Shown here piece by piece: positions 38,928 to 44,952 of a DNA stretch of 64,000 nt (its first letter is position 1; each line of letters starts with the position of its first letter). The notes beneath the pieces are model-generated. The model had not been told where the DNA came from and ran no database searches. It saw only the letters and a list, made by a program, of their open reading frames with translations. Source of the DNA: Candidatus Saccharimonadota bacterium (GTDB taxonomy: Bacteria > Patescibacteriota > Saccharimonadia > Saccharimonadales > Saccharimonadaceae). Where the stretch lies: positions 109,371-173,370 of the forward strand of contig JAFZSN010000011.1 in assembly GCA_017619315.1 (NCBI GenBank), in the 5' to 3' direction. Made by a program: the position numbers and the translations under genes.

Positions 38928-39949
38928 TGGTCTGATTCCTCGGAGTCTATTTGAGTTTGGTAAGTTGAAGCAGAAGAAGTTTTGAACGTGGCTTTTTCGA
39001 GGTCCTCATCGCTAAGAGTTGTTGAAACGAAGGCTTCAAATGTAAACACATCATCAGGATACATACCTTCAGCATAAAGTGAAGAAGTGTCAAGAATTTG
39101 TCCGTCTTCACCAATGGCAGAAACGATAATACGAATTGATTGCCTCTCGTTCGTTTTATTCTTAATAGAAACTTTGACAATTTTATGGTCAAGGTCCATA
39201 GTTTCACTCTTTTGAACTCCAAGAAACTCAATTTCGGCGGCATTATTAATGGTTTCCTTTGTGACAGACTCATTTTTTTCCGTAGTTATATCAGAGAAGA
39301 CACTAGGGCTTCCACTACTCGCAAAACGAGTATCATTGGATGCGCTAGAGTCGCTTGAATCACTGGAATTGTCATGTGGGACTACTTTAATTAAGATAAT
39401 CGCAACGACAACCGCAACGGATACAAATGCGATGATGGCAAATAAGATTTGGGACAGCTTCTTGTGAGTCTTTTTTTGTCCCTTTGGAGTAATGTTGGTA
39501 GCATTGTTTCTTTCGGCAGCAATTGTGGTATCAGTAACGCAATTTTGTGTTTCGAGCTCTCTGGTGGTAATTTCCCCGGTTGGCTCAACGACTGGCCTGG
39601 GACGTGTGGGTGTAGGGACTCTGACCGGGCGACCATGCATTGGAGCTTTTCGCACCGGACGCCTTCTGATGTCCATCCCGAGTGAACGTCGTCTATTCTG
39701 GGTTTCGGGCAAGCTTCGCAGTGGCCTTCTGGCCGCCCTTCTTTCGACCGTTGGGGTAGTTGCGGGTCTCGTAGTGATAGGTTGAGTTTTCGCCGCAGAA
39801 TTTTCAAATGCAGCGCTTTCTACCGGTTTGTTGTCAGCCAGTTCGTTATCGGATTGGTTTTTAAGAGCATCAAAAGGATCGGAAGCAGACTCTTTCTCCT
39901 GTTTCTTTCGCATTAAGGGGTTCGTCGTCAATGGCTTCTTTTGATCCAT
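38924..39949 (-). CDS. Single-pass membrane protein, proline/arginine-rich inside, small exported domain
   Basis: A 341-residue protein of unknown function. Residues 1-165 are polar and basic with many Pro, Arg and Thr (RRRPVRKAPMHGRPVRVPT), probably disordered in the cytoplasm. One membrane helix follows (ILFAIIAFVSVAVVVAIILI, about 168-188), then a Ser/Asp-rich linker and an extracytoplasmic domain at about 230-325 (KIVKVSIKNKTNERQSIRI) like DUF4352/FxLYD beta domains. It is first in the unit with gpsA and the helicase; the link between them is not clear. Confidence 0.6.
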   Translation of the reverse strand: MDQKKPLTTNPLMRKKQEKESASDPFDALKNQSDNELADNKPVESAAFENSAAKTQPITTRPATTPTVERRAARRPLRSLPETQNRRRSLGMDIRRRPVRKAPMHGRPVRVPTPTRPRPVVEPTGEITTRELETQNCVTDTTIAAERNNATNITPKGQKKTHKKLSQILFAIIAFVSVAVVVAIILIKVVPHDNSSDSSDSSASNDTRFASSGSPSVFSDITTEKNESVTKETINNAAEIEFLGVQKSETMDLDHKIVKVSIKNKTNERQSIRIIVSAIGEDGQILDTSSLYAEGMYPDDVFTFEAFVSTTLSDEDLEKATFKTSSASTYQTQIDSEESDQ

Positions 39950-40054
39950 AAGTATTATTTCTCCTCTATATTTACTAATATAATTTTATCACAAACTGCT
40001 TATGCAGTAAATCGACAAGTTTTACACAATTTCAAAAATTAAACATAAAAAGTC

Positions 40055-40083
40055 TTGAAATACCATATATAGTGTTATATTAT
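40055..40083 (+). promoter_or_regulatory. Promoter of nrdD-nrdG
   Basis: TTGAAA, 17 bases, TATTAT, followed by a leader of about 105 bases and AAGGAGG before the nrdD ATG. Confidence 0.7.
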
Positions 40084-40108
40084 ATTCATAAGGCACTAAA
40101 TGTAGGGT
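40060..40108 (+). promoter_or_regulatory. Tandem NrdR-box-like sites over the nrdD promoter
   Basis: ATACCATATATAGTGT (40060-40075) agrees with the NrdR palindrome ACACTATATATAGTGT at 14 of 16 positions and lies between -35 and -10. A weaker copy, GCACTAAATGTAGGGT (40093-40108), agrees at 12 of 16 and lies 33 bases on, about three helical turns, as NrdR pairs usually do. Confidence 0.65.
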
Positions 40109-40193
40109 AGCACAAGCATTACCATTAAGTTATCCTAAAAAGGTCATAGAAATAACAAATTGAACTAGAAAACACATTAAGGAGGTATATTTC

Positions 40194-42389
40194 ATGTTCA
40201 AAAGAATAGTAAAGCGGGATGGGAAAATCGTAAAATTCGATCCAGAAAAAATTACCGATGCCATCGCCAAAGCCGGACTCGCTACTGAAGAATTCAAATA
40301 TGATAGAGCCAAAACTCTAGCTGATAAAGTTTTAAAACGTGCGGAAGAAACCATTACGGTCCGTACTCCTAACGTCGAGCAAATTCAAGACATCGTCGAG
40401 GAAGTATTGATGGAGTCTTCATTTAAGAAGACCGCAAGAGAATACATCAGATATCGTCAGGAACGTTCTCGCCGACGCGAAGCTAAGTCTGATCTCATGA
40501 TGATTTATCGCACTATTTCTCACGCCGATGCAAGTGAAGACTCAGACATTAAACGTTCAAATGCTAACGTCGACGGCAACTCCGCAATGGGCAAGATGCT
40601 TCAATTCGGCGCTGAAGGCTCAAAGGTTTTCGCGAAAACACTACTGATTCGCCCCGACATCGCAGCCGCCCATGATAATGGTGACATTCATATCCACGAC
40701 CTTGATTTTTACGCTACTGGCACTTTGACTTGCTGCCAGTCCGATCCATTTGTGCTGTTCGAAAATGGCGGTTTTAACACCGGCCACGGTCACCTCCGTA
40801 CCCCGAACTCAATTGGATCATACGGCGCCTTAGCTGCAATCGTCTTGCAGGCGAACCAGAACGAGCAGCACGGTGGCCAGTCTATCCCTAACTTTGACTA
40901 TGCCATGGCCCCAGGCGTTAATAAGTCATTCAGGAAGGCTCTTAAGAGAAATCTCGCCAAATACAATAAATTCACCGGCAAGAAGCTAGATCTAGAAGTT
41001 AAAGATAGTTATGACTATGGTGAAGACGACAAATTGAAGAAAGCGAAATGGCCAAAAGAGGTCATCGAGGCGTCAAACGAAGACGTCGAGCGCGAAACTT
41101 TGCAAGCTATGGAAGGCTTCGTCCACAACCTAAATACCATGCACTCCCGTGCTGGTGCACAGGTGCCATTTACTTCAATTAACTTCGGTACCGACACGAC
41201 TCCAGCTGGCCGCTTAGTTTCGAAGAATCTCCTGATTGCGACCGAAAACGGCCTCGGCAAAGGCGAAACGCCAATCTTCCCGATATCAATTTTCAAAGTC
41301 AAATCAGGTATAAACTACGAGCCAGATGACCCGAACTACGACCTCTTCAAGAAGTCGATGGAAGTTTCTGCCAAGCGCCTCTTCCCTAACTTCTGTTTCA
41401 TCGATGCACCATTTAATTTGCAGTACTACAAACCAGGCGACTATCGCACCGAGATCGCAACCATGGGTTGCCGCACCAGGGTATTTGGCTCAATCTTCCC
41501 AGAATCTGACGGTATCGTCACGAGCCGTGGCAACTTGTCATTCACCACAATCAACCTAGTCAGAATTGGTATTAAACACGGTATCTGTCTCAAAGAAAGA
41601 AAAGAAGGCGACTGGGATGGATTCTACCGTGAATTAGACGAAAAAATGGATCTAGTTAAAGACGAATTACTCGAGAGGTTTGAATTCCAAGCCAACCAAC
41701 ACGTTCGCAACTTCCCATTCCTAATGGGCCAAGGCAACTGGTTTGGTAGCGAGAAATTAGGTCCTAACGACACTTTGCGTGAAGTCATTAAGCATGGTAC
41801 TTTATCAATCGGCTTTATCGGCCTCGCCGAGACGTTGGTCGCGATGACCGGCAAACACCACGGTGAAGACGAGGATTCCCGCGAACTCGGTCTTGATATC
41901 ATCACTTATATGCGAGAGAAATGTGACAAGTATAGCAAGAAATATAAACTAAACTTCTCCCTTCTAGCTACTCCGGCTGAAGGTATCGCTGGCCGCTTCA
42001 CTAAGATGGATCGTCGCGAATTTGGCAAAATCAAGGGTGTAACTGATCGTGAATTCTACACCAACTCATTCCACGTACCAGTCTATTATCCGATTTCCGC
42101 CTTTGACAAGATCGAAATTGAAGCGCCTTACCACGAACTCTGTAACGCAGGCCACATCACCTACATTGAGCTAGATGGTGATCCATCCCAAAATATCGCA
42201 GCATTTGAGGCAGTGATTCGCAAAATGCACGACGCTGGCATTGGCTATGGCTCAGTGAACCACCCAGTAGACCGTGACCCTGTTTGTGGTTTTTCTGGAG
42301 TTATCACTGGCGACAGATGCCCGCACTGCGGTAGACTAGAAGGTGATTTACCATTTGAAAAAGTCAGTAGTTGTGCTAAAGGAGAATAA
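40194..42389 (+). CDS. nrdD: Anaerobic ribonucleoside-triphosphate reductase NrdD, lacking the glycyl-radical end
   Basis: Class III RNR, 731 residues, reducing NTPs to dNTPs without oxygen. The ATP-cone is at 1-90; the paired cysteines are C180-C181 (TLTCCQSDP) and the thiyl cysteine C426 (TMGCRTRV). The C-terminal zinc site is imperfect: D695-P-V-C698 and C709-P-H-C712. After it the protein ends within 19 residues (EGDLPFEKVSSCAKGE), so the R-x-x-GY glycyl-radical motif and the following 25-30 residues found in known NrdD proteins are absent. No frameshift restores them. AAGGAGG precedes the ATG; nrdG follows with no gap (stop and start overlap). Confidence 0.92.
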   Translation: MFKRIVKRDGKIVKFDPEKITDAIAKAGLATEEFKYDRAKTLADKVLKRAEETITVRTPNVEQIQDIVEEVLMESSFKKTAREYIRYRQERSRRREAKSDLMMIYRTISHADASEDSDIKRSNANVDGNSAMGKMLQFGAEGSKVFAKTLLIRPDIAAAHDNGDIHIHDLDFYATGTLTCCQSDPFVLFENGGFNTGHGHLRTPNSIGSYGALAAIVLQANQNEQHGGQSIPNFDYAMAPGVNKSFRKALKRNLAKYNKFTGKKLDLEVKDSYDYGEDDKLKKAKWPKEVIEASNEDVERETLQAMEGFVHNLNTMHSRAGAQVPFTSINFGTDTTPAGRLVSKNLLIATENGLGKGETPIFPISIFKVKSGINYEPDDPNYDLFKKSMEVSAKRLFPNFCFIDAPFNLQYYKPGDYRTEIATMGCRTRVFGSIFPESDGIVTSRGNLSFTTINLVRIGIKHGICLKERKEGDWDGFYRELDEKMDLVKDELLERFEFQANQHVRNFPFLMGQGNWFGSEKLGPNDTLREVIKHGTLSIGFIGLAETLVAMTGKHHGEDEDSRELGLDIITYMREKCDKYSKKYKLNFSLLATPAEGIAGRFTKMDRREFGKIKGVTDREFYTNSFHVPVYYPISAFDKIEIEAPYHELCNAGHITYIELDGDPSQNIAAFEAVIRKMHDAGIGYGSVNHPVDRDPVCGFSGVITGDRCPHCGRLEGDLPFEKVSSCAKGE

Positions 42390-42940
42390 TGACCGATTGG
42401 CACAAATTAGCGCTCGAAAAAATCGCAAAGCAAGAAGAATTGCCAGAAGATAAAATCAGGCTATCTGGCCCGATCGAGCATGATAGTATCGTAAATGGCG
42501 ATGGCTTAAGGGCGGTCCTCTGGACCCAGGGCTGCCCCAACCATTGCCCCGGCTGCCAAAACCCCGAAACCTGGGATTACTGCGGCGGCATGGTTGTCCC
42601 GATCGACGACGTATTAAAACAATTATCTGAGCTGAAGGGCCAAACTGGTCTGACATTCTGTGGTGGTGAGCCATTTGTCCAACCAAAACAATGTAAAATC
42701 ATCGCAGATTACGTCCGAAAAGAACTAGGCTGGGACGTTTGGAGCTTCTCGGGCTTTACCTATGAAATCATTAAAGAATATGGCAAAGAACCATGGGAAT
42801 TCCTTAAATCCCTCGATGCAATTATTGACGGGCCTTTCATCCTGAAGCAAAGGGACCTCAGCCTTCGTTTTAGGGGTTCTAAGAATCAAAGGCTAATCAA
42901 GCTAGAATACGGTACCGGTAAAATCTTAAGTATAGAATAA
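42389..42940 (+). CDS. nrdG: Anaerobic RNR activating protein NrdG
   Basis: A 183-residue radical SAM enzyme that makes the glycyl radical on NrdD. The 4Fe-4S motif CPNHCPGCQNPETW (CX3CX2C) is intact, followed by LTFCGGEPFVQP (GGE motif), and SLDAIIDGPF near the C-terminus. Length and motifs are normal. It overlaps the nrdD stop (TAATG) and has AAAGGAG inside the end of nrdD. Its intact state contrasts with the missing target glycine in the neighbouring NrdD. Confidence 0.93.
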   Translation: MTDWHKLALEKIAKQEELPEDKIRLSGPIEHDSIVNGDGLRAVLWTQGCPNHCPGCQNPETWDYCGGMVVPIDDVLKQLSELKGQTGLTFCGGEPFVQPKQCKIIADYVRKELGWDVWSFSGFTYEIIKEYGKEPWEFLKSLDAIIDGPFILKQRDLSLRFRGSKNQRLIKLEYGTGKILSIE

Positions 42941-42973
42941 AAAAATCCCCCCGATCAAACGGGGGTGATTTTT
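42939..42973 (+). terminator. Shared terminator of nrdDG and the convergent gene
   Basis: AAAAATC-CCCCCG...CGGGGGTGATTTTT, with A and T runs on both sides between two convergent genes. Confidence 0.85.
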
Positions 42974-43820
42974 AGAATTCACGTTTTTTGCGTCTTGCTT
43001 TTTTAATTCTAGTCACAATAAATGCGACGAGCGCAGCGATTGTAAGAACCACAAGGATCATGAACCAAACCGGGCAGATGATTACCTGCTTTTCAGTTGT
43101 AGATACCTTGCCATCAAAGTGTATCGTTTGATTGACGGTTACAACACCGATAGAAGGCAAATTACCAATCTCACGGCTTGTATTGTAGGTTGTATCAGGC
43201 ATAACAAGTTCGCCGAATTGGCCTTGCTGTTCATCTTTTGGATAAATTACGTCACCGGTAAAGAAATTCGTGACCTTGAGGACGATTGTAGCAGTTTGAT
43301 GAATATTACCCTTGTTCTGAAGCTTTGCTGTAACGGTAATTGGAGGAACAGCAGTGAATCCTGGGACGTTGTTTTCTAGGATCTCACCATCTTTGACGGT
43401 ATCACCAGAAACAGTCCCATAGATAAGGCTAGCCATCTCGAAGACGTTTTGGACAGAAAAGCCATCATTTTTGCCACCGTCATTATTACTCGATACATTA
43501 AGAGAAGCGTACTGGCCACCAGCAGCAGCATCCGAAGGGGTAGCGATTGTGAATTTGACTTTCTTGGTACCATTAGGCGCAATGGTACCCGTAGGCTCTT
43601 CGATCTTGATCCAATCCACGATCTCATTGCTTTTATTCTTGGTTTGTAAATCAGCCGTATAATCCTCGCCAACCACACTATATGGCGAAACGGTAACTTT
43701 GTAATTAAAGTCTGCCTTGGCATCGGCCGGATTCACGATTGTGATGTAGCCTTCATATGTCTCACCAGGATTCAAATCAACCTGTTGATTCATAGGCATT
43801 ATAGTGAATGCGTTTTCCAT
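42972..43820 (-). CDS. DUF916-like cell-surface protein with C-terminal anchor, no signal peptide
   Basis: A 282-residue protein: one or two beta-sandwich domains (LNPGETYEGYITIVNPAD, KVKFTIATPSDAAAGGQYAS, then TVTAKLQNKGNIHQTATIVL) and a C-terminal membrane helix (WFMILVVLTIAALVAFIVT) with a basic tail. This is the DUF916/DUF3324 layout of WxL-binding surface proteins. It starts at what looks like the mature N-terminus (ENAFTIMPMNQQVD): there is no hydrophobic export signal, an in-frame TAA lies 13 bases before the ATG, and the iscS promoter occupies the region upstream. The 5' end may have been lost. Confidence 0.65.
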   Translation of the reverse strand: MENAFTIMPMNQQVDLNPGETYEGYITIVNPADAKADFNYKVTVSPYSVVGEDYTADLQTKNKSNEIVDWIKIEEPTGTIAPNGTKKVKFTIATPSDAAAGGQYASLNVSSNNDGGKNDGFSVQNVFEMASLIYGTVSGDTVKDGEILENNVPGFTAVPPITVTAKLQNKGNIHQTATIVLKVTNFFTGDVIYPKDEQQGQFGELVMPDTTYNTSREIGNLPSIGVVTVNQTIHFDGKVSTTEKQVIICPVWFMILVVLTIAALVAFIVTRIKKARRKKREF

Positions 43821-43878
43821 AATACTTTTATCTTAGCAGTTAAAAAAGATTTAGGCAAGAGGTGATATAATTAATAAA

Positions 43879-44952
43879 ATGGTCTATTTAGATTACGCTG
43901 CAACCAGCCCGCTTCTACACGAGGCAATTAAAGCTATGCGCGAAGCAGAGCAGAGATTTTTTGCGAACGCATCGGCGTTACACACGCCAGGCCACCTTTC
44001 CCTAAACAAAATAGAAGAGACGCGTGAGCTCCTCGCGCAGTTGATCAATGCCGAGCCTGACGAGATTATTTTTACGTCTGGCGCGTCAGAATCCAATAAT
44101 ACGGTTATTCGTACTTTTGAAGGACACAAAATTATTACTTCGCCCCTGGAACATCATTCTATTATCGAGTCGGCAAAAGCCCTCGGCGGCAAGAAGACTC
44201 CTGCGCTATACTCTTATATGCTAGCAAATAACGAAATCGGCGAGTTTTTGCCTATAAAAGACATCGTAAAAAAGGCACGTAAAGAAGGCGGCTTTGTCCA
44301 CTCCGATCTCACCCAGGTACTCGGTAAGCTACCGATCGATGTTAAAGCTTTAGACCTAGATTACGCAACATTCAGCGCGCATAAAATCGGCGGCCCAATA
44401 GGCGTCGGCGCGCTTTATGTGAGAAATGGTGCACCGTTTAAACCCCTCGTCATCGGTGGGAACCAGGAGAAAAAACGTCGCGGTACGACGTATAATACGG
44501 TCGGAATTATTGGTTTTGGTGCTGCTCTGAAATACGCCGACGAGCATAAAACATGGGAAATATACGATACGAAAATCCGCGCGCTTCGCGACAAGCTTGC
44601 AAGGCGCATTTTAAAAGAAATCCCGGGCAGTAGCCTAAATACTGACCTCAAGAATTCCCTGCCAAATATATTAAACGCCTCATTTGAGGCAGCCGAAGGC
44701 GAGTCGATCCAGTTATATCTAGACGCTGAAGGCATTATCGTGTCCACCGGCTCCGCCTGCGCCTCTGGCGATATTAAGCCGAGCCATGTCTTGATGGCGA
44801 AAACCGGCGATGCCGAAGTCGCACACTCATCCATTCGCTTCTCATTTGGCTTAGATAACACGGAGAAGGACGTTGATAGAGTTATGGAAGTTTTACCAGG
44901 GGTTATCGATCGTTTACAAAAAATCAGCACCCTAGAAAGGAAAAAGAAATGA
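43879..44952 (+). CDS. iscS: Cysteine desulfurase, NifS/IscS family
   Basis: A 357-residue PLP enzyme that takes sulfur from cysteine for Fe-S clusters and tRNA thiolation. LDYAATSPL opens the protein; IFTSGASESNN, FSAHKIGGPIG (PLP on K169) and STGSACASGD (catalytic C294 in the flexible loop) are all present. TATAAT lies seven bases before the ATG, so the message is leaderless. The stop overlaps the scaffold gene by four bases (ATGA). Symbol given for the family; the NifS versus IscS distinction is not resolved. Confidence 0.92.
   Translation: MVYLDYAATSPLLHEAIKAMREAEQRFFANASALHTPGHLSLNKIEETRELLAQLINAEPDEIIFTSGASESNNTVIRTFEGHKIITSPLEHHSIIESAKALGGKKTPALYSYMLANNEIGEFLPIKDIVKKARKEGGFVHSDLTQVLGKLPIDVKALDLDYATFSAHKIGGPIGVGALYVRNGAPFKPLVIGGNQEKKRRGTTYNTVGIIGFGAALKYADEHKTWEIYDTKIRALRDKLARRILKEIPGSSLNTDLKNSLPNILNASFEAAEGESIQLYLDAEGIIVSTGSACASGDIKPSHVLMAKTGDAEVAHSSIRFSFGLDNTEKDVDRVMEVLPGVIDRLQKISTLERKKK

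Follow-up and report, generated by a model that had tools for sequence, protein, structure and literature searches.

A probable two-subunit class III ribonucleotide reductase in Saccharibacteria, with the glycyl-radical loop on a separate small protein

The window analysed here, a stretch of 64,000 nucleotides from contig JAFZSN010000011.1 of a Candidatus Saccharimonadota genome (GCA_017619315.1), encodes NrdD, the catalytic subunit of a class III ribonucleotide reductase (RNR), without the loop that carries the radical glycine. The question is where this glycine comes from. In the class III RNRs of the cited papers, as far as the parts consulted tell, it lies on the catalytic chain; the glycyl domain of P. 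copri NrdD, for example, spans residues 676-739 of that chain with Gly711 (PMC11226230, in part). With a probability of about 0.87, the window NrdD and a 145-amino-acid (aa) protein, whose gene lies on a different contig of this genome, constitute a two-subunit class III RNR. This reading is based on gene content, co-occurrence, shared promoter boxes, selection, phylogeny, and predicted fold, and from these we infer binding, radical formation in trans, catalysis, and a role of the ATP-cone. The two-subunit enzyme of these tiny gut Saccharibacteria is very probably real and functional, and its radical subunit has the look of a former spare part on which the enzyme has come to depend.

The gene nrdD (40194..42389, forward strand) codes for 731 aa with ATP-cone, core, and zinc motif. 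The product matches PF13597 with an E-value of 6.3e-179 over profile positions 2-529 of 562, and NCBIfam PRK07111 over positions 1-709 of 746. Its ATP-cone lies at residues 4-92 (PF03477, E 1.3e-21), and C180, C181, and the thiyl Cys426 (within MGCRTR) are all present, as an earlier note on this DNA had read them; by its core the protein is homologous to NrdD. The best solved relative is P. copri NrdD (8p23), over residues 1-714. The R-x-x-GY glycyl loop is missing from the C-terminus. The chain ends in FEKVSSCAKGE-stop (42354..42389, forward strand), 19 residues past the last zinc-site cysteine C712 and before the glycyl motif, which agrees with the note; by eye, FEK aligns with FER of FERLRRITGYLVG in full-length relatives. 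R-x-x-GY was found in none of the six frames of 42201-43100, and the longer loop pattern R-x-x-GY-x..W/F-N/M in none of the six frames of the whole window, so the claim that no other local frame supplies the loop holds. An Rfam scan of 39900-43900 gave no match at the gathering threshold. The gene nrdG (42389..42940, forward strand) follows directly and is intact, again as claimed. It encodes the radical SAM activase with CPNHCPGC at residue 49 (TIGR02491, 126.3 bits against a cut-off of 126.1), its start overlaps the nrdD stop by one base, and AAAGGAG near the end of nrdD (codons at 42378-42384) doubles as its Shine-Dalgarno sequence. Because the loop is lacking in cis, the window NrdD is treated here as one of two subunits, the catalytic one, of a variant enzyme.

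A separate small protein was one source of the glycine that the earlier note had considered, and a search of the rest of the genome for it was successful. Searched with the NrdD profile, the draft assembly of 11 contigs gave two matches, the window gene and a separate open reading frame (ORF) on contig C4, which covers the missing loop (PF13597, positions 532-562 of 562). An NrdD-type glycyl loop is thus encoded in the genome, on an ORF of its own. The ORF has 153 aa from the first ATG and 145 aa from a conserved start at codon 9; the gene is on the complement strand at about 84730-85167 of C4 (L002:1414-1851). The C-terminus of the protein is FERLRRITGYLVGTLDRWNDAKKAEEKARVKH and 28 further residues, with Gly94 as the expected radical site. 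On the 746 positions of PRK07111, the window NrdD and the small protein tile over 1-709 and 708-744, respectively. The co-occurrence, promoter boxes, and purifying selection given below also strongly support this source of the glycine. One further ATP-cone ORF of the genome, with 154 aa, is NrdR-like by length and cone.

Co-occurrence was followed in a class sample of 294 genomes. The NrdD profile is matched in 110 of them, of which three were assigned to neither type, full-length or truncated: the match of G090 is broken, that of G268 partial, and that of G220 weak. The window's genus contributes 76 genomes, counting that of the window itself; nrdD is truncated in 43 of them, full-length in 32, and absent from one. 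The 43 truncated genes, one per species and one of them counted from two contigs (G234), all end at profile position 529 or 530 of 562. The small gene accompanies 42 of them, at 70-100% identity. Among the 32 full-length genomes of the genus, 11 have a diverged small gene (52-60%) and 21 have none. Ten of 13 full-length genomes of a second genus, g8, have the small gene, while it is in none of 19 other full-length genomes of the family. No genome of the class sample has the small gene without nrdD. Class I and II RNR genes, a check that the note had proposed, were searched by large subunit (class I small subunits were not searched), and none was found in the window genome or in any of the 76 genus genomes. 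A weak match to the small protein in G055 was rejected as chance, since by eye it lies in a recombinase-like ORF.

The 22 truncated genes fetched, of the 43, all stop after ..CPHCGRLEG.., approximately where full-length relatives continue into FERLRRITGYLVG. In a tree of 54 NrdD cores, these 22 are one clade (100/99) nested among full-length proteins. The nearest relatives are G167 with G184, then G152, all with full-length nrdD and the small gene; for this reason, the small gene is most simply taken to be older than the truncation. The simplest reading of the tree would be that a spare part existed beside full-length NrdD first, and that one clade then lost the tail and became dependent. At matched NrdD distance, the small proteins of truncated species differ from those of the nearest relatives by 44% (45 pairs), and those of 12 full-length pairs by 28%, the pairs being not independent. 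It is as if the small protein was remodelled when becoming essential.

Both genes appear to share their regulation. Upstream of nrdD are tandem NrdR-like boxes on the forward strand (40060..40108), ATACCATATATAGTGT (40060-40075) and GCACTAAATGTAGGGT (40093-40108), 33 bp from start to start, placed over a promoter-like TTGAAA-17-TATTAT (40055-40083) that was read by eye. The note's remark on NrdR-like boxes is right, and a comparable arrangement stands before the small gene on C4. With the consensus ACACTATATATAGTGT, a spacing of 32-33 bp, and a pair score of at least 20 of 32, tandem boxes were recognized before 78/78 close and 20/20 diverged small genes; from the 101 small-gene loci (81 close, 20 diverged), L099 and L135, with no assigned start, and one with a short upstream sequence were left out. 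The boxes also precede 22/22 truncated nrdD genes (scores 22-26) and 32/32 full-length ones (scores 23-29, one at spacing 30). Of 480 control upstream windows, seven reach 20 and none exceeds 21. An earlier control had 59 of 551 windows at 20 or above, some of them overlapping the small-gene promoter, and 57 overlapping windows were then removed. In the truncated group, the ratio of nonsynonymous to synonymous substitution rates (dN/dS) of the small gene has a median of 0.03 in the loop (417 pairs) and of 0.12 in the N-terminal domain (67 pairs), both from pairs with dS of 0.3-1.5; dS is near saturation. The small gene is under purifying selection.

In the two-subunit enzyme, NrdD would provide the ATP-cone, the substrate and effector sites, the thiyl Cys426, and the zinc motif. 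Activated by NrdG at Gly94, where the radical would form, the small subunit would insert its loop into the NrdD barrel beside Cys426, like the C-terminal domain of ordinary NrdD. The first approximately 85 residues of the small protein take an ATP-cone fold in two AlphaFold models. This fold of residues 1-85 is what the protein has in common with the ATP-cones of NrdR, NrdA, NrdD, and some NrdB; by eye, it is YRNP-like where the genus's own NrdD cones have a KRDG stretch. The cone-fold half probably docks the small subunit or couples it to nucleotide control.

Several observations weigh against this reading. The best Foldseek E-values for the fold of the small protein are 0.013 and 0.16. HHalign of its N-terminal domain with the NrdD ATP-cone gives no support (probability 3.9), and PF03477 matches neither the small protein nor any of 35 members among the matches listed (25 of 32 families), so that the ATP-cone assignment is a prediction from folds only. 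The glycyl loop is itself modelled at low confidence, with blocks of the predicted local distance difference test mostly at 38-68. One genome, G274, has truncated nrdD without the small gene, in an assembly of 50 contigs that is 92% complete. The box consensus was picked after viewing the window, and six small genes score 20 or 21, so the weakest pairs overlap the best controls. Presence of the small gene among tailed NrdD shifts repeatedly, the labels needing 11 changes in all, and gain and loss are not fixed by the tree. Several separate acquisitions of the small gene, for instance from phages, are also conceivable.

Four other explanations were compared with the two-subunit enzyme. The small protein may be a repair part only, for NrdD cleaved by oxygen, as with GrcA, while truncated NrdD uses another radical residue such as a C-terminal cysteine. 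The 11 genus genomes and the 10 of 13 g8 genomes with both full-length nrdD and the small gene are as expected of a spare part, and C-x-C ends many truncated NrdD proteins. Yet the small gene, variable among tailed NrdD, is in 42/43 tail-less genomes, and neither C727 nor C-x-C is conserved in the clade, G221 and G154 having no cysteine there; this explanation is unlikely. Still less probable is a decaying nrdD, with a dead enzyme, imported deoxynucleosides, and the small gene as a relic. NrdD does lack an essential element in cis, and Saccharibacteria of this kind have small genomes and are probably host-dependent. The nrdD frames are, however, long and stop-free in 42/43 genomes (the 43rd over two contigs), the small gene is kept in 42/43 with the low dN/dS of 0.03-0.12, box pairs stand before both genes, and there is no class I or II large subunit. 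Service to another glycyl radical enzyme is very improbable. GrcA-like proteins are known for pyruvate formate-lyase (PFL), according to part of PMC8683613, but here the loop gave a match to NrdD, and none to PF01228 was reported. Of 100 genomes of the genus (64 with a completeness of 90% or more and a contamination of 5% or less), two encode PFL-like enzymes, and in both of these nrdD is full-length and the small gene is absent. An assembly deletion or frameshift at the nrdD end, conceivable in a draft genome, is hardly credible because 43 species' genomes of the genus end alike, the 22 fetched are one clade, and nrdG follows with its Shine-Dalgarno sequence inside the last nrdD codons; the related genomes with longer nrdD that the note had named as a sign of such a deletion do exist, but only as other lineages.

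Compared with known class III NrdD proteins (P. copri 8p23, S. thermophilus 9d3x, T4 1h78, T. maritima 4u3e), the two-subunit enzyme has the same ATP-cone, core, thiyl cysteine, zinc motif, NrdG, and NrdD-type loop, but the loop is part of a second polypeptide, encoded at a different locus. The small protein resembles the E. coli protein GrcA/YfiD and the phage T4 protein Y06I in being small and stand-alone, with a glycyl-radical loop that would supply the radical glycine in trans, and in having phage-encoded copies. GrcA and Y06I serve PFL, whereas here the loop is of NrdD type, the N-terminus has an ATP-cone fold, and the target enzyme is tail-less. The Pfam family NRDD was matched in 35/35 small-protein members; PF01228, the PFL-type loop, did not match the small protein up to E 1, nor the 35 members among the matches listed (25 of 32 families). 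Since its loop did not match PF01228, the small protein, which by analogy would work like GrcA, is not classed as a GrcA/YfiD family member. A precedent for radical supply in trans is E. coli PflB with the radical glycine replaced, where formate production depends on GrcA or native PflB (PMC12338860, in part). GrcA and Y06I were the only validated cases as of 2021, and the part of PMC8683613 consulted offers a role with other enzymes as a speculation. The present locus is a concrete case for the question raised there, whether glycyl radical enzymes besides PFL have spare parts too. A description of an NrdD spare part or split NrdD was not found in open-licence literature by title, abstract start, or passage, among the matches listed. 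NrdJa/NrdJb is likewise an RNR divided into two polypeptides; it is a split class II RNR with no glycyl radical. In a naturally divided enzyme, the radical half could be made, labelled, activated, and exchanged separately, and NrdG access to the glycine, loop entry into the barrel, and gating by the ATP-cones become testable. An evolutionary route by which a part that could be dispensed with became an obligate one is also visible here.

Outside the class, NrdD was matched in 87 of 379 genomes of the phylum, and 40 loci were inspected, 35 chosen for the loop as a separate match, four for in-frame stops, plus G600. In 36 of the 40, nrdD ends past the zinc motif, and the loop, of the form ..RxxCEVYSRVVGYxRPVxQWNxGKQAEF.. 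or GYHRP, has a short ORF of its own, located at the end of nrdD or directly downstream, in a varying relative frame. The nrdD genes of these split loci presumably belong to another subtype, T. maritima-like by motif. Of the other four, G550 has full nrdD and a spare loop ORF, G307 and G435 are without clear assignment, and G600 stands separately; its locus (L366) has truncated nrdD and no loop ORF in the sequence covered, and may be another case of supply in trans. In L361 (G581:C1:80500-84200), a glutaredoxin-like domain (CPKC, by eye) forms one protein with the separate loop, which suggests that radical and reductant delivery may be on one small subunit. The loop ORFs of L347 (G550) and L156 (G594) are alike, each with an additional N-terminus rich in CxxC; they stand beside full-length and truncated nrdD, respectively, and are a second pair of spare part and subunit. 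Six genomes (G512, G447, G497, G399, G483, G351) have nrdD frames of 1025-1557 aa in which the profile matches in pieces, probably due to inteins.

Stand-alone loops were also found on viral contigs, where viral status is the label of the collection except for L235-L237. A scan with the diverged small protein as query gave 11 loci, and the same cone-loop protein is encoded on three phage contigs, L235, L236, and L237. Neighbours in L235 and L237 include the large terminase, L237 has also a NinG-like ORF, and the ORFs of L236 are those of L237. With two further scans there are 109 loci in all, a number that includes overlapping contigs; the scans were seeded with stand-alone loops, and prevalence in phages is not readable from the counts. 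The loop is in a short frame in 99 loci, eight have NrdD with its own loop, and two have no frame. L343, short at first reading, is the cut end of an ordinary NrdD. The short frames have 44-216 aa from stop to stop, and four run off the available sequence. A tail-less NrdD core is alongside the loop in seven of the 99 (L258, L270, L292, L308, L313, L331, L344), and within the sequence covered none was seen in the other 92. In Eggerthella phage EL753P1, nrdD stops before the loop, and a loop-like stretch is about 500 bp downstream, over two reading frames. In a PHROGs scan of six loop proteins, the best match of all six was the tail of the PHROGs NrdD family, and of none a stand-alone-loop family. 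The phage loop proteins are a close parallel to T4 Y06I (PMC8683613, in part). The copies in phages and Patescibacteria suggest that stand-alone loops are widespread, and overlooked because the genes are short. A joint reading, with odds slightly below even, is that the loops of class III RNRs are, as a whole class, exchangeable radical subunits: those of Patescibacteria would replace the NrdD tail, adjacent or in trans, in phages they would stand alone and re-arm or take over the host anaerobic RNR, and in Saccharibacteria a second, degenerate ATP-cone would add control of radical-subunit entry. Eight phage loop proteins (L285, L301, L325, L331, L339, L340, L342, L344) share an N-terminal domain (e.g., MKVTVIGGKIPQEEIDAYIEH..) that by eye is unlike the cone.

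The zinc motif of the window NrdD, D695-P-V-C698 ... C709-P-H-C712 (42276..42329, forward strand), consists of Asp and three Cys. The earlier note gave Asp at position 695 and called the site one cysteine short; read as damage, this needs correction. The Asp is common to the relatives compared, including all 32 full-length ones counted, and DPVC is in 54/54 relatives bearing the NHPVD motif, of which 22 have a truncated and 32 a full-length NrdD; this count omits 11 fetched loci without NHPVD, eight of another NrdD subtype and G033, G049, and G240 (in the last two, the wrong frame was taken). On this sequence comparison, D695 in place of a zinc Cys is regarded as a subfamily trait, not damage. 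C727, which the note offered as a substitute, sits in the variable C-terminal end, in the same stretch as the nrdG Shine-Dalgarno sequence. Many truncated NrdD proteins end in C-x-C or more cysteines (L175-L194; window 42354-42389) beside this sequence, which may be a redox tail or chance.
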